This document shows, in pieces, positions 1 through 6,435 of a stretch of 64,000 nt of DNA (position 1 is its first letter; each line of letters starts with the position of its first letter). The stretch spans positions 1 to 64,000 of the forward strand of contig JADBLO010000003.1 of the NCBI GenBank assembly GCA_014894395.1, read 5' to 3'. Below the pieces are notes generated by a model. The model did no database searches. It saw only the letters and a program-made list of their open reading frames with translations, and was not told the DNA's origin. Source of the DNA: Thermoplasmata archaeon. GTDB lineage: Archaea; Thermoplasmatota; E2; DHVEG-1. The position numbers and the translations under genes were made by a program.

Positions 1-152
1 AGAATGATGGAAAAGTCAAAAAGTTCAACGAAATTATTTTTCAGACAAGCTCTAAACATATTAATTTAGCCTATAAAACCTGTGAGGATGTTTATTCAAC
101 GATTATTCCAACGATGTCATCTTTTTTAGAACAGAATGGGATTGAGATATAA
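1..152 (+). CDS. C-terminal end of an unidentified protein (partial)
   Basis: An open frame enters from the left edge (reading from base 3) and gives 49 codons ending in TAA at 150..152. The visible tail is hydrophilic and mixed alpha/beta in character, with nothing I can assign to a family. The stop codon shares one base with the ATG of the next small gene (TAATG), which suggests translational coupling in one operon. The function cannot be stated from this fragment. Confidence 0.5.
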   Translation, partial: NDGKVKKFNEIIFQTSSKHINLAYKTCEDVYSTIIPTMSSFLEQNGIEI

Positions 153-333: not shown

Positions 334-1170
334 ATGATTTATAGAGTCAAGTTGAGCTGTTGCCAGCTCGCCCTGCTCTCATAGACCGTACGTACGAATT
401 TCCCGTATACGGCCTTCTCCGTGATTTCCCCAATTACAGGGAGTGAGGTGTCTTCCTCACTGACCAAAACCAACAAATCTACAAACCATTTTGGTTTGCG
501 TTTCCAAGCAACGCAAAGCATTGCTAATCTACGATTTGCCAGTATTCAGTTCTCACGAACCAGACCCCTTCACTCAGCCAAGTTTTATCCTCCAGTCTGT
601 TACCAGCATATCATTGGCTTAGCTTCATTGCTACTATGAGTCAGCTGACTCCTCATACAACATTAGTACTTGGCTTTCCCACACATGTGGTTATACCGTT
701 TTCTTACTTACTTTCCCAAGTAGGATTGTATGAGTTCTCCCTTGGTAAGACCATCTACTTTCACCACATGCCAACCCTGATACACCATACATCCAGCATG
801 CTTCATCTTCCCTTTATATCAGCAGCATGCTGCACCGGATTTCCCTAATTTTACAGTAGGTCATCAATGGTATGATGCTACATCCAGGTTCACCATTATG
901 ATTTTGGCCTGTGATTTTGTCTGCAGCTTCCTTCATTCATAAACTCACATTTATGAACTTGCCATCCATATAGGATGCCAGACTTTTGAGTCCCTTCGAC
1001 TACTCTTCCGAAAGGGAAATTGAAGAGGGCAGATTTTCACTGCCTAGTAGATAGCCATGCAAGGCACACGTAAAATCTGCGGTACGAACGAGACCGATAA
1101 CCCTGATGCGATATGCGATGACTGTAAATTCTGTATTATTACGGATAAAGATATTCCACCAAATATCTGA
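334..1170 (+). pseudogene. CxxC zinc-ribbon mini-gene split by an antisense group II intron
   Basis: If the 729 bases at 341..1069 are removed, positions 334..340 and 1070..1170 join into a clean reading frame: MICKICGTNETDNPDA, then two more CxxC-spaced cysteines, then CIITDKDIPPNI and a TGA at 1168..1170. That gives CKIC and CDDC-KFC knuckles, typical of small archaeal zinc ribbons. The ATG at 334..336 lies just after a GGGTG stretch. The exact rejoining of the frame is the evidence for both the gene and the intron ends. The intron lies on the opposite strand, so the sense mRNA could not splice it out and the gene should be inactive. Confidence 0.7.
341..1069 (-). mobile_element. ORF-less group II intron, minus strand
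   Basis: Read on the minus strand, the element begins GTGTGCC at 1069 (5' consensus GUGYG) and ends CTCTAT at 341 (terminal AY). Domain V is visible at 383..415: AGGCCGTA pairs with TACGGTCT, with a two-base CG bulge before the 3' strand and a GAAA-containing cap. Domain VI follows as a GAGCTG-GCAA-CAGCTC hairpin ending near 341. At 729 nt it has no room for a reverse transcriptase or maturase, and no such frame exists, so mobility would need an enzyme supplied in trans. The ends are fixed by the restored reading frame of the interrupted zinc-ribbon gene. Confidence 0.75.
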
Positions 1171-1241: not shown

Positions 1242-1547
1242 ATGAAAATTAATATTGATAAACCATTTGGAACAAAACCAAAGATAGCAAATATTGTTGC
1301 TACGGGCAGGTTTCCAAAAGAGTTAGATATCGTTAAAATCTACAAAGAAGTAGATTTTCCAAATAAAGAATATGAGCCAGAGACGTATCCTGCCTTATTA
1401 GTAAAAGTTGAAGTGAATGGAATGTTGAGGCATGTCACGCTCTATAGAAATGGTAAATATATTATAGCAGGTGCTACCTCAGAAAAAGATGTTAATGATA
1501 CTTATACAACAATCTTCAACATATTGAAAGAATATGGATATTTTTAA
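1242..1547 (+). CDS. Single-repeat TATA-binding-protein-like protein
   Basis: A 101-residue protein that reads as one half of a TBP saddle. 'IANIVATGRF', 'EYEPETYPAL' and 'NGKYIIAGATSEKDV' match in order the repeat elements IxNIVAS, EYEPExFPGL and SGKxxxTGAKSEED of archaeal TBP. Normal TBPs are about 180 residues with two such repeats; here only one is present and the protein stops after the second helix. It may dimerise to rebuild a saddle, bind a partner, or act as a regulator. It is flanked by two copies of the tail of a CxxC mini-protein (1117..1170 and 1558..1605), suggesting it arrived with or inside a duplication. Family assignment is by eye. Confidence 0.65.
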   Translation: MKINIDKPFGTKPKIANIVATGRFPKELDIVKIYKEVDFPNKEYEPETYPALLVKVEVNGMLRHVTLYRNGKYIIAGATSEKDVNDTYTTIFNILKEYGYF

Positions 1548-1557
1548 ATTAAATCGG

Positions 1558-1605
1558 AATAAATATTGTATTATTACTAATAAAGACATCCCACCGGATT
1601 TTTAA
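1558..1605 (+). repeat. Degenerate second copy of the zinc-ribbon gene tail
   Basis: This stretch translates as RNKYCIITNKDIPPDF-stop, nearly the same as the end of the interrupted mini-gene at 1126..1170 (KFCIITDKDIPPNI-stop). No start codon or upstream CxxC part is attached, so it is a remnant. The two copies bracket the TBP-like gene. The final bases overlap the 3' end of the restriction gene on the other strand. Confidence 0.6.
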
Positions 1606-4517
1606 TATTCTTTTAAACCGAGTAAATCACCTAATGTCCCTTTTACTTTTGATTTTGTTAATTTTGCATAATCCAATATTTCCTGGGTGGTACCACCTTG
1701 TTCGCTCATTCGATAAAATGTATTCTCACCGAGGAGAACATAACTCCACATGCAGTTTAATCTATCCTCGGGTTTTAAGTCGTTGACTTTATCAATCCAG
1801 TCAATAGTGGCCAAGCGTTTTTGTTTTACGTTCACACTGCTCATATCTCGCTCTGCTTTTGTCTCGACCAGGAAAATGTTATCACCGATTTTAACCATGA
1901 AATCAGGGAAATAATGTGCTAATAGACCATCTTCTCTAATATAAATGACATTTGCGAAATCATAGTAGTGCTCGTTTATTTTAACGAATGCTTTTACCTT
2001 CGAGTCTGTATCAACGAATTCGATGAATGCTTTTTCAAATCCACCTTTATTAGAGGGGTAGGCTACCTTTTCGTAAATAGTCTTGGCGACATTAATTGCA
2101 TAGGTTTCCCTGATTTTGATTTCTTTTACTTCAGAGAAATATCTTTTTATTATTGTTGCATCTATTACTTCAAGTTTATTTTGTAAATCATAGATAGATT
2201 GGCTAACATTTTTCACAATGTGTTGAATTATTTTTCCTTGCGTAAGGATAAGTATTTTCCAGTTATTGTTGACTAACGGGTCGAACTCTTGTTCAAAAAG
2301 TCTATGCCTTATATATTCGTCAATTAGTTTTGCTATTAATGCAGTGTTTATCTGCATTATCGGGAAGTTTTTTTGTGTTCTCTTACCTATTTTTATAGGT
2401 ACGGATGAGACTGCGTTTACGATTTTTTGAATGAATGAATTATAACTTTTTGCTGTGAAAATATCAGCGGTGACAACATATTCACCGAATTTAGTTCGTA
2501 CCGTGAGTTCTTCTCCATAGAAGACCTCACCTTCTCGCACGGTAAACGGTCGCAGTTCATCTAACTTGATGGGGAATGGTTGAAGATTATCAATCGATAA
2601 TTCATCGGATTTAAGATGTTCTTCTTTATCATGAACAATAATAGGCCAGAGCATGTCATACTCTTGATAATTCTGCTTGAGGGGAACGTTAATGAGGTCT
2701 CCGACAACTCGGTCTCGTTTCGGTAATGTTTTTGTTTCTCCGATTACACCGCTTAATTCCTTTTCATAAAACTCAATAAATGCAGGATGCTCGATGATGC
2801 TTAAAATATCCATGTAATTATCGGGTTCCTCTTTTTTTACAAGGAGTTTTTCCCTGTTTTCTCTCTTGCTATCTTCGTATTGTGGTTCTCGCCACATAAT
2901 ACGAAGTCCTCTTCCGATTGTCTGCTCTAAAAGAATATATGATGACGTGGAACGCAGAGGAACAATGACGCAGATGTTGTTTACATCAAAACCCTCTCGC
3001 AGCATGAGAACCGAGAGGATGACTTTAGGCGATTTGCATTTATCAATGCTGAATAATTTCTGCTTAACTTTTTCCCATTCATCTTCGCCTATCTCTCCTT
3101 TTCTGTTACTATGTATCTCCATGATGTCTTCATCGGCTAATCCTTCTTGCATGAGAAACTGACGAACATGAGGAACGACAGATGTGTCTTCACAGATTAC
3201 CAGCATCTTTGGACATCTATTAGCATCGATTTTAGTAAAACCTTCTTCCAGTATTCGTAATTTGGTTAATCCTGCTCGTAGCATTATGCGTTGTCCATCT
3301 GACAAACGTATCGTTGTACCATCTTTTTCTGCGGAAAAATCCAATGGTAGTGCTGCTATTTCTTTTCTTTTATCGATGGCAACCGTCTTTACTAAACCAT
3401 TTTTTATTGCTGTATAGAGTTCAAAATTCACAATGATGTGTGGAAAGAAATGCCGTGTGCGTTTCTGCCCCGAACCAGTTACAGTATACGGTGTTGCAGA
3501 GAAGTCGATTTGTATGAATTTTTCTTTTTTATTTTTAGAGATTTCATCGAGTGATTCCTGCCATTTTTTTTCTAATATTTCATCAGATGTTTTAAACTCG
3601 CTGAGATGGTGTGCTTCATCATTGAAAACAACCAAATCAGGTAGATTTGCAAGATATTCGAGTTCTTTACCTCGCAGATACTGATTATCTAATTGTTCAA
3701 GGGAGTGACCTGCTGTAGTTCCTGGGGTAATCGGGAGTAATCTTTTTATCGTCTGTTGTGGAGTATCTAATGCTGTTCCTTCTTCTTCATCATCATCTTG
3801 CTCTTCTGCGAGTAAATGCCAATTTGTTATCCCTATGAAACCTTCCCCAGTTACTTTTCTGCTGATTTCTTCTTTCTGTGCGACACAAGATTGGAGAAAA
3901 CCGAAAATCTCATCTTTATATGCTTGAGGTATGAACAACGATTGAAAGTTTTTGAAATCCGATGTATCAAAATTACGTGTTCCATCTTCTTTTCTTTTTC
4001 CTAAAAAGGCATCCAATAACCTTTCATAGACAATGATGCCAGGGGCAACGAGAAGGAAATTCTTTGAAAAATTGTTCGTTGGTGTTTCCTCATGTTTTGA
4101 GTTTAGGTATTGCCATATCAGTAATGCTGATAGCACCCAGGTTTTCCCTGTCGCTGTCGCCATCTTAATACAAAACATCTTATGGCCGTACTTACTCTTC
4201 TTGAGGTCGAGTAAATCCATTTCCGTGAGAAGGTCTGGATAGACAGCCATGTATAAATCATGCACATTATTGACATTCAGAATCTCATTAACGTAAATTG
4301 TATTCAGAATTGCCTGCCACTGCCCTTCATGGAAATTAAAGTTTCTTACATCTGCAAAGTTCCCTGTGGGATACCAAAATCGTAGAAGGTCTCTTGTTAT
4401 AGGGGTCACTTTTTCAATCAAGGTCCCCTCATTCCATTCTTTGTTAGCCATTTTTGTTATAAGGTCTGCTAACTTTAAAGGAACAGTTCCTGTGCCAAGC
4501 GATTTAGCAGTAACCAT
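1602..4517 (-). CDS. res: Type III restriction enzyme, Res subunit
   Basis: A 971-residue superfamily 2 helicase/nuclease. Walker A is TATGKT at residues 121-126, the DEAH box is at 300-303, SATPY follows as the helicase motif after it, and TIGRGLRI is an arginine-finger motif VI. Near the C-terminus a PD-(D/E)xK-like nuclease site is visible: FPDFMV, then FLVETKAE. The length matches typical Res subunits. Res cuts DNA when the Mod-Res complex meets unmethylated head-to-head sites, using ATP to slide or signal between them. It lies 4 nt downstream of mod on the same strand, the normal order. Both genes look intact. Confidence 0.93.
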   Translation of the reverse strand: MVTAKSLGTGTVPLKLADLITKMANKEWNEGTLIEKVTPITRDLLRFWYPTGNFADVRNFNFHEGQWQAILNTIYVNEILNVNNVHDLYMAVYPDLLTEMDLLDLKKSKYGHKMFCIKMATATGKTWVLSALLIWQYLNSKHEETPTNNFSKNFLLVAPGIIVYERLLDAFLGKRKEDGTRNFDTSDFKNFQSLFIPQAYKDEIFGFLQSCVAQKEEISRKVTGEGFIGITNWHLLAEEQDDDEEEGTALDTPQQTIKRLLPITPGTTAGHSLEQLDNQYLRGKELEYLANLPDLVVFNDEAHHLSEFKTSDEILEKKWQESLDEISKNKKEKFIQIDFSATPYTVTGSGQKRTRHFFPHIIVNFELYTAIKNGLVKTVAIDKRKEIAALPLDFSAEKDGTTIRLSDGQRIMLRAGLTKLRILEEGFTKIDANRCPKMLVICEDTSVVPHVRQFLMQEGLADEDIMEIHSNRKGEIGEDEWEKVKQKLFSIDKCKSPKVILSVLMLREGFDVNNICVIVPLRSTSSYILLEQTIGRGLRIMWREPQYEDSKRENREKLLVKKEEPDNYMDILSIIEHPAFIEFYEKELSGVIGETKTLPKRDRVVGDLINVPLKQNYQEYDMLWPIIVHDKEEHLKSDELSIDNLQPFPIKLDELRPFTVREGEVFYGEELTVRTKFGEYVVTADIFTAKSYNSFIQKIVNAVSSVPIKIGKRTQKNFPIMQINTALIAKLIDEYIRHRLFEQEFDPLVNNNWKILILTQGKIIQHIVKNVSQSIYDLQNKLEVIDATIIKRYFSEVKEIKIRETYAINVAKTIYEKVAYPSNKGGFEKAFIEFVDTDSKVKAFVKINEHYYDFANVIYIREDGLLAHYFPDFMVKIGDNIFLVETKAERDMSSVNVKQKRLATIDWIDKVNDLKPEDRLNCMWSYVLLGENTFYRMSEQGGTTQEILDYAKLTKSKVKGTLGDLLGLKEY

Positions 4518-4521
4518 CTAT

Positions 4522-6435
4522 CTACACCTCTTTAACCACTGCACTTTCAAAACCGAAAACATCGACAGTTTTTACGCAGATTTTTTTCTTTCCTTTGTTT
4601 TTTGGAATAAGAAGTTTAGCCACCTTTTTTATGCGTAAATCTTCGTTGTTCTCTCGGTAATCCTGCCATTTACTCCGAAATACATCACCATCATAATCAG
4701 GGTCGATACTCCAATATTCTATCAGGCTCATGGGGTCTTCTGCAATTACTTTTTCCAGTTTCTCTTTATTTTCTTTATCTAATGGTAGAGCATCAGGAGA
4801 AAGCAACACATAATTGTCAAGTTCTACTATTATTTCATCTTCTTCATCATTGTAAAAATTCTTTTTTATCGGTTTTATAGTAAGGTATTGCAGCGATGAA
4901 AATCGGATACTACCCGATTTGATTAATTGTTCGTAACTTGCTTTTGTCTTTAATTTATCCAGTAAGTCTGGGGGGATAATCAATACCTCTAATCTTTCGT
5001 CATTTAAACTTTCGATAATTCTACCGATGTCCGTTACGAAATTCCAACCGAGCACGACAATCTTTTCCCAACCACCCATAAACGATGCTCGTAGTTCCTG
5101 TGCTTTCTTTAGCGTGTTGTATCCAGTTAATTTGGAGGGGGAATCAACAAAAACGAGTGTTTTTGATTGTTTGATATAACCTAAATTGTTTGGCACTCCT
5201 TCTTGATAGGGGAATGGTAATGCACCATAGAGATTGATTATAACATGTGCTAAATCACTTATTGTTTTGAAAGCAGATTGTTCATACTGTTCCTTTTGAT
5301 AATCTCCGATTGATTGGTATAAGAATGGTTTTACATCTTGGTCAATCAACCGTTTTCTTGTAATCATACATGCAGGTTTACCAATATCGCACATAATCCA
5401 CTTTCTACCACATTTATCGGCGACAGCACCCGTAGTTCCAGAACCAGCGAATAAATCTGCAACTATTGAGCCACTATTACTTGCAATATTTACTATCCTT
5501 ATCAATAATTCTTCAGGTTTTTGGGTATCAAAATCCAATCTTTCTTTTGCCATAGAATTGACCCGAGGAATATCCCATAATGTTCCTACCATTTTATCTT
5601 TCGAGTCGTAATATACAACATTTCCATTTGCGTCTTTGACTGTAATCATTTTCTTCGCAATAGGGTCCCAAGTCACTTTGTTTTGTTTTCTTGTTTTTTC
5701 AACAGGTATTTTTTGGTGATTAATTATATGATTATCTTTGCTTTTAGAATACCAGTAAATTACTTCGGTTTCGGTTGGTAGATGCTTTGAGAAAGAAAAT
5801 TGAAATTTATTTTTATACCACCATATGATTTCATTTATAAGATTTTCTTTGCCATAAATATCATCCATAATCATTTTAACATAGTGCCCTACATGCCAAT
5901 CTGTATGAACATAAATACTCCCCTGTTCACTTAGAAGTTCTCTCATAATAATAATACGAGGGGTCATATATTGTAAATATCTTACTGTTCCGATTACCTT
6001 TTCTCCGTTAGGTAAGGTAGTCCCCCACATGTCAGAATATGCAAACTGCTCAATCACTGTCGGTTTTTGTTCGATATCAGTCGTTGGAAGGTGAATTTTT
6101 GTTCTATAATCTGCTTTCGAGTCAAATGGAGGGTCAATATATATTAAATCAATTTTTCCTCTCATGGAAGGCAGACCAGTTGCAGGGTCTCCTGCCAATA
6201 AAGCCTGCATTGCGAAAATGTTATCGCCATAAATCATTCTATTAAACCATTCATCTTTTTTTAATTGCTTTACCTCTTGCCCCCAATAGCCCCCCGATGC
6301 CTTTGCTGGTAATACCAGTTCATTAGTCTGCAAGGTAATCCTGTTTCTTGTTGAAAGACCATCAAGTATCTTCTGTGCTTCTTTTTTACCCTGTGCTACA
6401 ATCTTTGGGAGATGTTCAATTAACGAATCCGGCAT
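4522..6435 (-). CDS. mod: Type III modification methyltransferase, Mod subunit
   Basis: A 637-residue beta-class DNA methyltransferase. The catalytic motif IV DPPF (residues 101-104) comes before the SAM-binding FAGSGT (329-334), the order that defines the beta group used by type III Mod proteins. The product would be N6-methyladenine, and Mod also carries the recognition domain between the two motifs and at the C-terminus. It is followed after 4 nt by res, so the two are co-transcribed. The recognition site cannot be read from the sequence. Restriction genes fit the accessory character of this region. Confidence 0.93.
   Translation of the reverse strand: MPDSLIEHLPKIVAQGKKEAQKILDGLSTRNRITLQTNELVLPAKASGGYWGQEVKQLKKDEWFNRMIYGDNIFAMQALLAGDPATGLPSMRGKIDLIYIDPPFDSKADYRTKIHLPTTDIEQKPTVIEQFAYSDMWGTTLPNGEKVIGTVRYLQYMTPRIIIMRELLSEQGSIYVHTDWHVGHYVKMIMDDIYGKENLINEIIWWYKNKFQFSFSKHLPTETEVIYWYSKSKDNHIINHQKIPVEKTRKQNKVTWDPIAKKMITVKDANGNVVYYDSKDKMVGTLWDIPRVNSMAKERLDFDTQKPEELLIRIVNIASNSGSIVADLFAGSGTTGAVADKCGRKWIMCDIGKPACMITRKRLIDQDVKPFLYQSIGDYQKEQYEQSAFKTISDLAHVIINLYGALPFPYQEGVPNNLGYIKQSKTLVFVDSPSKLTGYNTLKKAQELRASFMGGWEKIVVLGWNFVTDIGRIIESLNDERLEVLIIPPDLLDKLKTKASYEQLIKSGSIRFSSLQYLTIKPIKKNFYNDEEDEIIVELDNYVLLSPDALPLDKENKEKLEKVIAEDPMSLIEYWSIDPDYDGDVFRSKWQDYRENNEDLRIKKVAKLLIPKNKGKKKICVKTVDVFGFESAVVKEV

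Follow-up and report, generated by a model that had tools for sequence, protein, structure and literature searches.

A stand-alone, single-repeat TBP gene adjoining defence operons in Thermoplasmatota

A gene for a single repeat of the TATA-box-binding protein (TBP), here called half-TBP, lies near the start of the window, that is, the whole stretch of 64,000 nucleotides analysed from contig JADBLO010000003.1 of a Thermoplasmata archaeon. Judged by sequence comparison, its product appears to belong to a defence-linked branch of archaeal TBPs, as a rare and conserved member with a single lobe.

The half-TBP gene and its product

The open reading frame begins with ATG, has an in-frame TGA directly 5´ of this codon and ends with TAA (Table 1). 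A sequence-only reading had taken it for a stand-alone TBP repeat with a clean end, and the profile search which that reading proposed bears this out. Pfam TBP (PF00352) matches with E = 9.8e-17 (61 bits; cut-off 22.9) in a single stretch, positions 2–85 of the 85 in the profile, which is one whole repeat. The NCBIfam TBP models also cover the protein over one repeat only, and in comparisons with solved TBPs (E down to 4e-15) both TBP repeats align separately to the same half-TBP stretch. No second repeat can be read 3´ of the stop, where an unrelated micro-ORF is followed by the Res gene of a restriction-modification (R-M) system. Two tandem repeats in one chain, a feature of canonical TBP, are absent from half-TBP and from both of its intact homologues. 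The structure of the monomer, for which a prediction had likewise been proposed, was modelled with AlphaFold from three homologues as input. The order of strands (E) and helices (H) is E-H-E-E-E-E-H, corresponding to S1-H1-S2-S3-S4-S5-H2 of one TBP lobe, in the best of five models (pLDDT 81.5; the other four were poor, 38–61). The best 44 solved-structure matches of the model in Foldseek were all TBPs or TBP-containing chains (TM-score about 0.6–0.73).

Table 1. Positions of the features discussed; residue numbers refer to the half-TBP protein.
Feature	Position	Strand	Description
Group II intron	window, about 341-1070	-	short, without ORF; antisense in 37-codon zinc-ribbon-like ORF
Half-TBP	window, 1242..1547	+	101 aa, stand-alone single TBP repeat
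Micro-ORF	window, 1534-1605	+	MDIFKLNRNKYCIITNKDIPPDF; overlaps end of half-TBP gene
Res subunit, type III-like R-M	window, 1602..4517	-	971 aa; Pfam ResIII 1.6e-12, PADLOC REase_III 1.5e-29
Mod subunit (N6/N4 methyltransferase)	window, 4522..6435	-	637 aa; Pfam N6_N4_Mtase 1e-44, PADLOC MTase_III 1.4e-69
Half-TBP secondary structure	residues about 14-23, 30-36, 41-76, 81-97		strand S1, H1, S2-S5, H2
Half-TBP key residues	residues 49 and 68; 44-47		Tyr at the two kinking positions; YEPE stirrup
Tandem pair of full-length TBP genes	C45, 49490-50589		genome G000, locus L090; pair also on C134 of G391
Broken TBP remnants	Haloquadratum walsbyi plasmid PL100, record about 65099-66058		loci L032/L074
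Single-repeat-only clade			genomes G420, G442, G557, G626, G688, G643, G677, G502, G690, G660; loci L077, L111, L116, L117, L118

The same genome (2.7 Mb, assembled from a metagenome) also encodes full-length TBPs with two repeats, one of them directly before a TFB-like gene (contig C93) and two as the tandem pair on C45 (Table 1); a further TBP is cut by a contig end (C61). As half-TBP coexists with full-length TBPs, it is considered an extra, specialised factor. A recent origin from the TBPs of its own genome is unsupported, given only about 35% identity and different signature residues. Separately, the tandem pair of full-length TBP genes listed in Table 1 is conserved across two genera, away from defence genes, and its second gene is fast-evolving, with an NPDEVPA stirrup that lacks the usual Phe.

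The half-TBP family is rare, with four loci known from four genomes. A scan of genome contigs yielded a homologue of 103 aa from Candidatus Thermoplasmatota archaeon (locus L029; 72% identical) and one of 94 aa from isolate SZUA-236 (locus L030; 57% identical), both one repeat long and both starting and ending at matching places relative to the repeat. The fourth copy, in genome G409, is frameshifted (profile E 1e-20). When a profile of the three intact sequences was run over 390 genomes of the window's phylum, its members scored E 1e-48 or better and the next best TBP 6e-15; several hundred other archaea added nothing except the frameshifted G409 copy. Scanned viral contigs held no half-TBP relatives, and phage records gave full-length relatives only. 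Between half-TBP and its L029 homologue dN/dS is about 0.12, from 39.5 synonymous differences at 62 synonymous sites and 35.5 non-synonymous differences. This value and the two intact homologues of one repeat argue that half-TBP is a conserved gene under purifying selection and not a broken one.

Other accounts of the reading frame were rejected. A chance or spurious ORF is ruled out by the profile match (E = 1e-16), the homologues and dN/dS. Against a two-repeat TBP gene interrupted by the group II intron or by a frameshift stand the lack of a second repeat downstream, the location of the intron in another ORF and the equally short homologues. Some further short TBP ORFs were also discarded as half-TBPs: those in genomes G208 and G069 result from frameshifts or contig ends, and an ORF of 105 aa on Haloquadratum PL100 stops within the start of the second repeat and is therefore a truncated full-length gene.

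The group II intron lies about 170 nt upstream of half-TBP and leaves the TBP gene uninterrupted. The earlier reading had drawn attention to both a group II intron and a restriction system beside the gene. Both are present and the restriction system matters, but the intron at this locus looks incidental and sits in a neighbouring small ORF. Once the flanks of the intron are joined, this zinc-ribbon-like ORF reads MGDDFKICGTNETDNPDAICDDCKFCIITDKDIPPNI. Its tail (CIITxKDIPP) is repeated by the micro-ORF that overlaps the end of half-TBP, so that half-TBP sits between two copies of the tail; the other half-TBP loci showed no such sequence.

Defence genes beside half-TBPs and related TBPs

In the window, half-TBP lies 54 nt from the end of Res and is convergent with a type III operon that contains both subunits such a system requires, Mod being 4 nt upstream of Res. 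The L029 half-TBP is convergent with a BREX operon: the end of brxL is 4 nt away, brxA, brxB and brxC lie upstream of that gene, and an AbiEi-like regulator flanks half-TBP on its other side. At L030, a type I R-M locus, half-TBP follows HsdR and a YgjP-like peptidase on the same strand. In G409 the half-TBP copy overlaps HsdR at the 3´ end of the latter, and the locus also encodes HsdM, HsdS, an IrrE-like peptidase and DUF4411. A defence system adjoins half-TBP in all four loci (type III R-M, BREX and two type I R-M), and the same protein queries found defence genes near none of 17 canonical TBP loci, taken both from these genomes and from others. The exact probability of this split is 1/5985, about 2e-4 (1e-4 with 19 TBPs counted), for queries drawn from the defence loci themselves and for controls that include some short contigs and one locus (L136) where the annotation places McrBC genes at a distance of about 2 kb.

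Full-length TBPs with a first repeat like that of half-TBP were reached in haloarchaea by plasmid and phage searches, with half-TBP and then a near haloarchaeal relative as query. The plasmid matches of one of these searches were chosen by similarity rank, partly to sample lower ranks, while their context was still unseen. The TBPs are encoded at plasmid loci L072, L073, L075, L122–L127, L129, L130 and L132 and at virus loci L033 and L128, in BREX, DISARM-like, type I and type II R-M surroundings. In Haloarcula halophila the gene is part of a BREX operon (BrxC-MTase-TBP-PglZ-BrxL; MTase, methyltransferase). Operons of the order MTase-helicase-TBP, most with genes overlapping by a few nt, occur in Halorientalis, Natronomonas, Halolamina, Halorubrum lacusprofundi and Halobacterium NRC-1 (pNRC100, TBP gene at record 111987-112532); their helicase is BrxHII/DrmD-like and their MTase DrmMI/type IIG-like. 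The variant TBP also accompanies BREX type 5 (Halococcus, Halanaeroarchaeum, Halorarius) and type I R-M (Halobacterium sp. DL1, Haloquadratum PL100). In Natribaculum breve it occurs with the gene of a type IIG-like enzyme and, at one locus, with a DUF1156 MTase; two haloviruses that encode it have R-M genes nearby. No R-M operon adjoined any of six less similar, canonical plasmid TBPs.

On Haloquadratum walsbyi plasmid PL100, the broken TBP remnants (Table 1) lie at one end of an intact type I R-M operon, and a divergent TBP gene of full length lies at the opposite end. These remnants suggest that R-M loci have gained and lost TBP genes repeatedly.

Signature residues and origin

Half-TBP differs from canonical TBP at the two positions that kink the DNA, residues 49 and 68, the equivalents of yeast Phe99 and Phe116 in TBP-DNA structures. 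An alignment of 78 repeats comprised 3 half-TBPs, 12 haloarchaeal first repeats and 63 others. The two kinking columns hold Phe in 63/63 and 62/63 canonical repeats and Tyr in all three half-TBPs. Four residues are found in all three half-TBPs and in none of the 63 others: Tyr49 and Thr66, each present in 9 of the 12 haloarchaeal first repeats, Tyr68 (12 of 12) and Tyr73 (11 of 12). The second kinking Phe, at position L5.1, is almost universal in archaea and eukaryotes; bacterial single-lobe TBP domains (RNase H3, RnlA) have predominantly Tyr or His there, and a change to Tyr influences TATA binding (PMC7221094). The replacement of Phe by Tyr at the kinking positions may weaken TATA binding of half-TBP. 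The protein keeps Asn17 and Val19 in its central strand as well as the stirrup motif YEPE. Its Glu45 and Glu47 are the counterparts of two glutamates in the C-terminal lobe that contact TFB (PMC7221094); Glu47 is replaced by Asp in the L029 homologue.

In a tree of all rows, the half-TBPs and most variant first repeats fall outside the 68 canonical, R-M second-lobe and G420-clade repeats (support 89/90). Without the long rows, half-TBPs and variant first repeats lie on one side of a branch with support 97/94, at which long branches meet, as the program warns. A grouping of half-TBPs with the single-repeat TBPs of the G420 clade is not rejected by the AU test (p = 0.23). On these sequences, the better-supported reading, although not a proven one, is that half-TBP descends from the first lobe of a defence-linked TBP. 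The tree grouping with first repeats of defence-embedded haloarchaeal TBPs, together with the common Tyr for both kinking Phe, indicates that half-TBP is probably a derived, defence-linked TBP and not a relic of an ancestral half-TBP. A special link to the ancestral TBP, which a homodimer would mimic according to the sequence-only reading, finds no support in this placement.

The same reading took all known archaeal TBPs to be proteins of two repeats, a view that is not supported. Proteins of a single TBP domain are said to have been found in some archaea by Brindefalk and co-workers (2013), and in a clade of small archaeal genomes (0.3–1.3 Mb; Table 1) about ten draft genomes show one-repeat TBPs only, encoded by 1–3 genes each. 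The clade appears to have a single-repeat TBP as its sole TBP, a consistent pattern among draft genomes. These TBPs keep the canonical Phe residues and form their own branch in the tree, and no defence genes were found beside the two G420 genes examined. Two relatives of the clade have fused, very similar tandem repeats, in proteins of 199 aa (G482) and 377 aa (G462); loci L078 and L081 hold the fused forms. As a further observation, G462 has an ORF of 726 aa with four TBP repeats; the number of repeats varies within the lineage, which looks like a rerun of the ancestral duplication. Because this clade has single repeats only and its relatives have tandem fusions, one repeat can plausibly work as a dimer, and the analogy lends support to a TBP function of single repeats, presumably as homodimers.

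Possible role and relation to known systems

We tentatively propose, with belief and doubt close to balance, that half-TBP is a homodimeric, defence-dedicated factor that initiates transcription of its own gene and of the R-M or BREX operon beside it. Two copies would pair into a symmetric saddle, like the two repeats of ordinary TBP. The dimer would bind a TATA-like element with a specificity altered by Tyr for Phe at both kinking positions, would engage TFB via the retained YEPE stirrup and would then drive the two transcription units as their dedicated initiation factor. The defence module could thereby set its own expression in different archaeal hosts. An extra factor with changed DNA-contact residues and an intact TFB motif looks like a promoter-selective TBP, and association with unrelated enzymes points to a regulator rather than an enzyme subunit. 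Homodimerisation is plausible; we infer it, as well as binding to DNA and TFB, the target promoters and activation rather than repression. Several points speak against a dedicated factor. The half-TBP genes of the window and L029 are convergent with the defence operon and not at its head, and a comparison of the regions upstream of half-TBP and of the defence operons gave no common promoter element or operator above chance. The small number of loci (four), the possible weakening of TATA binding by Tyr and the long branches joined in the tree, with the other grouping left standing by the AU test, also weigh against it.

A broader proposition, which is possible but in our estimate has somewhat more chance of failing than of holding, extends to unrelated archaeal antiviral systems (types I, II and III R-M, BREX and DISARM-like). 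These would carry a dedicated, previously unrecognised TBP with altered kinking residues, shared with haloviruses whose genomes include R-M genes; it would have been reduced to a self-pairing single lobe in Thermoplasmatota and one further archaeal phylum, giving the system its own promoter recognition independent of host TBP.

The association with R-M operons and the altered DNA-contact residues could also be those of a repressor or timing switch, an archaeal counterpart of the controller (C) proteins, whose dimer would block the defence TATA without supporting TFB or RNA polymerase and so delay or damp restriction. The convergent or trailing position of half-TBP would suit such a switch, as the product would accumulate independently of transcription of the defence operon. 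We nevertheless find this role unlikely, since half-TBP retains the glutamates that contact TFB, no palindromic operator is apparent and the full-length haloarchaeal relatives keep a canonical second lobe, which fits activation.

It seems similarly improbable that half-TBP is a nucleic-acid-binding part of the defence machinery, for example a sensor of invading DNA or RNA-DNA hybrids like the RNase H3 lobe or the TBP of TOTE and TALON systems. Half-TBP is far closer in sequence to archaeal TBP than to RNase H3 and keeps the TFB motif, and its occurrence with types I and III R-M and BREX is better explained by shared regulation than by a shared enzymatic role. In support of a part in the machinery, Tyr at L5.1 is typical of the bacterial single-lobe domains (PMC7221094), TBPs occur in TOTE and TALON systems (PMC12458937) and in one BREX operon the gene of a haloarchaeal relative is flanked by those for the MTase and PglZ.

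Interference with host transcription, by pairing or competing with host TBP or TFB, e.g. as a shutdown during infection, is very unlikely: the TFB-contact residues are kept and several full-length TBPs coexist with half-TBP, but the lobes of full-length TBPs are already paired and nothing positive favours such a role. A decaying, functionless fragment of a two-repeat defence-linked TBP is barely credible and largely refuted by conservation, with three intact genes of matching length and the low dN/dS, even though related TBP genes do decay, as in the frameshifted G409 copy and the truncated genes of PL100.

TBP is treated as a housekeeping factor. If defence loci indeed repeatedly have their own TBP, sometimes half of one, as proposed for the dedicated factor, general transcription factors would have been recruited into archaeal antiviral immunity, and there would be a partial explanation for the presence of multiple TBPs in haloarchaea. 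Half-TBP would also offer a natural single-lobe TBP for testing DNA binding and TFB recruitment by a symmetric dimer, as proposed for the TBP ancestor.

TBP itself is well known, and single-TBP-domain proteins of archaea reportedly are as well; TBPs are furthermore known from TOTE and TALON systems (PMC12458937). Within the literature searched, most subscription papers lying outside it, we found neither TBP genes as recurrent parts of archaeal R-M or BREX loci nor a stand-alone variant TBP lobe tied to these systems, and a 2026 survey of BREX diversity leaves TBP unmentioned (PMC12839542). TOTE and TALON conflict systems combine TPR, OB, TBP and effector (work cited in PMC12458937), and TALON occurs largely in Chloroflexota with a TPR-cold-shock protein (PMC12458937). 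They resemble the half-TBP loci in that a TBP is encoded in a defence locus; however, no TPR or cold-shock domain was found among the scanned neighbours of half-TBP. RNase H3 and the RnlA toxin have a single TBP-like lobe with Tyr at L5.1, as in half-TBP (PMC7221094), but their lobes are domains of nucleases, whereas half-TBP stands alone and is close to archaeal TBP.

With canonical archaeal TBP (PF00352), half-TBP has in common the repeat, the predicted fold, the central-strand Asn and Val and the TFB-contacting glutamates. It differs in having one repeat instead of two and Tyr for both kinking Phe, in being additional to the normal TBPs of its genome and in lying beside defence genes. Restriction C proteins are possibly similar as small regulators beside R-M genes, but they are helix-turn-helix proteins, whereas the fold predicted for half-TBP is that of TBP. 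Monopartite TBPs, both those reported by Brindefalk and co-workers and those of the G420 clade, are stand-alone single repeats like half-TBP; the G420-clade proteins, unlike half-TBP, keep both Phe, apparently are the sole TBP and had no adjoining defence genes in the two cases examined. The TBPs of haloarchaeal plasmids and viruses (e.g. annotated as 'TATA-box-binding protein C') are like half-TBP in first-repeat signature and in neighbourhood, and differ from it by the presence of a second, canonical repeat.
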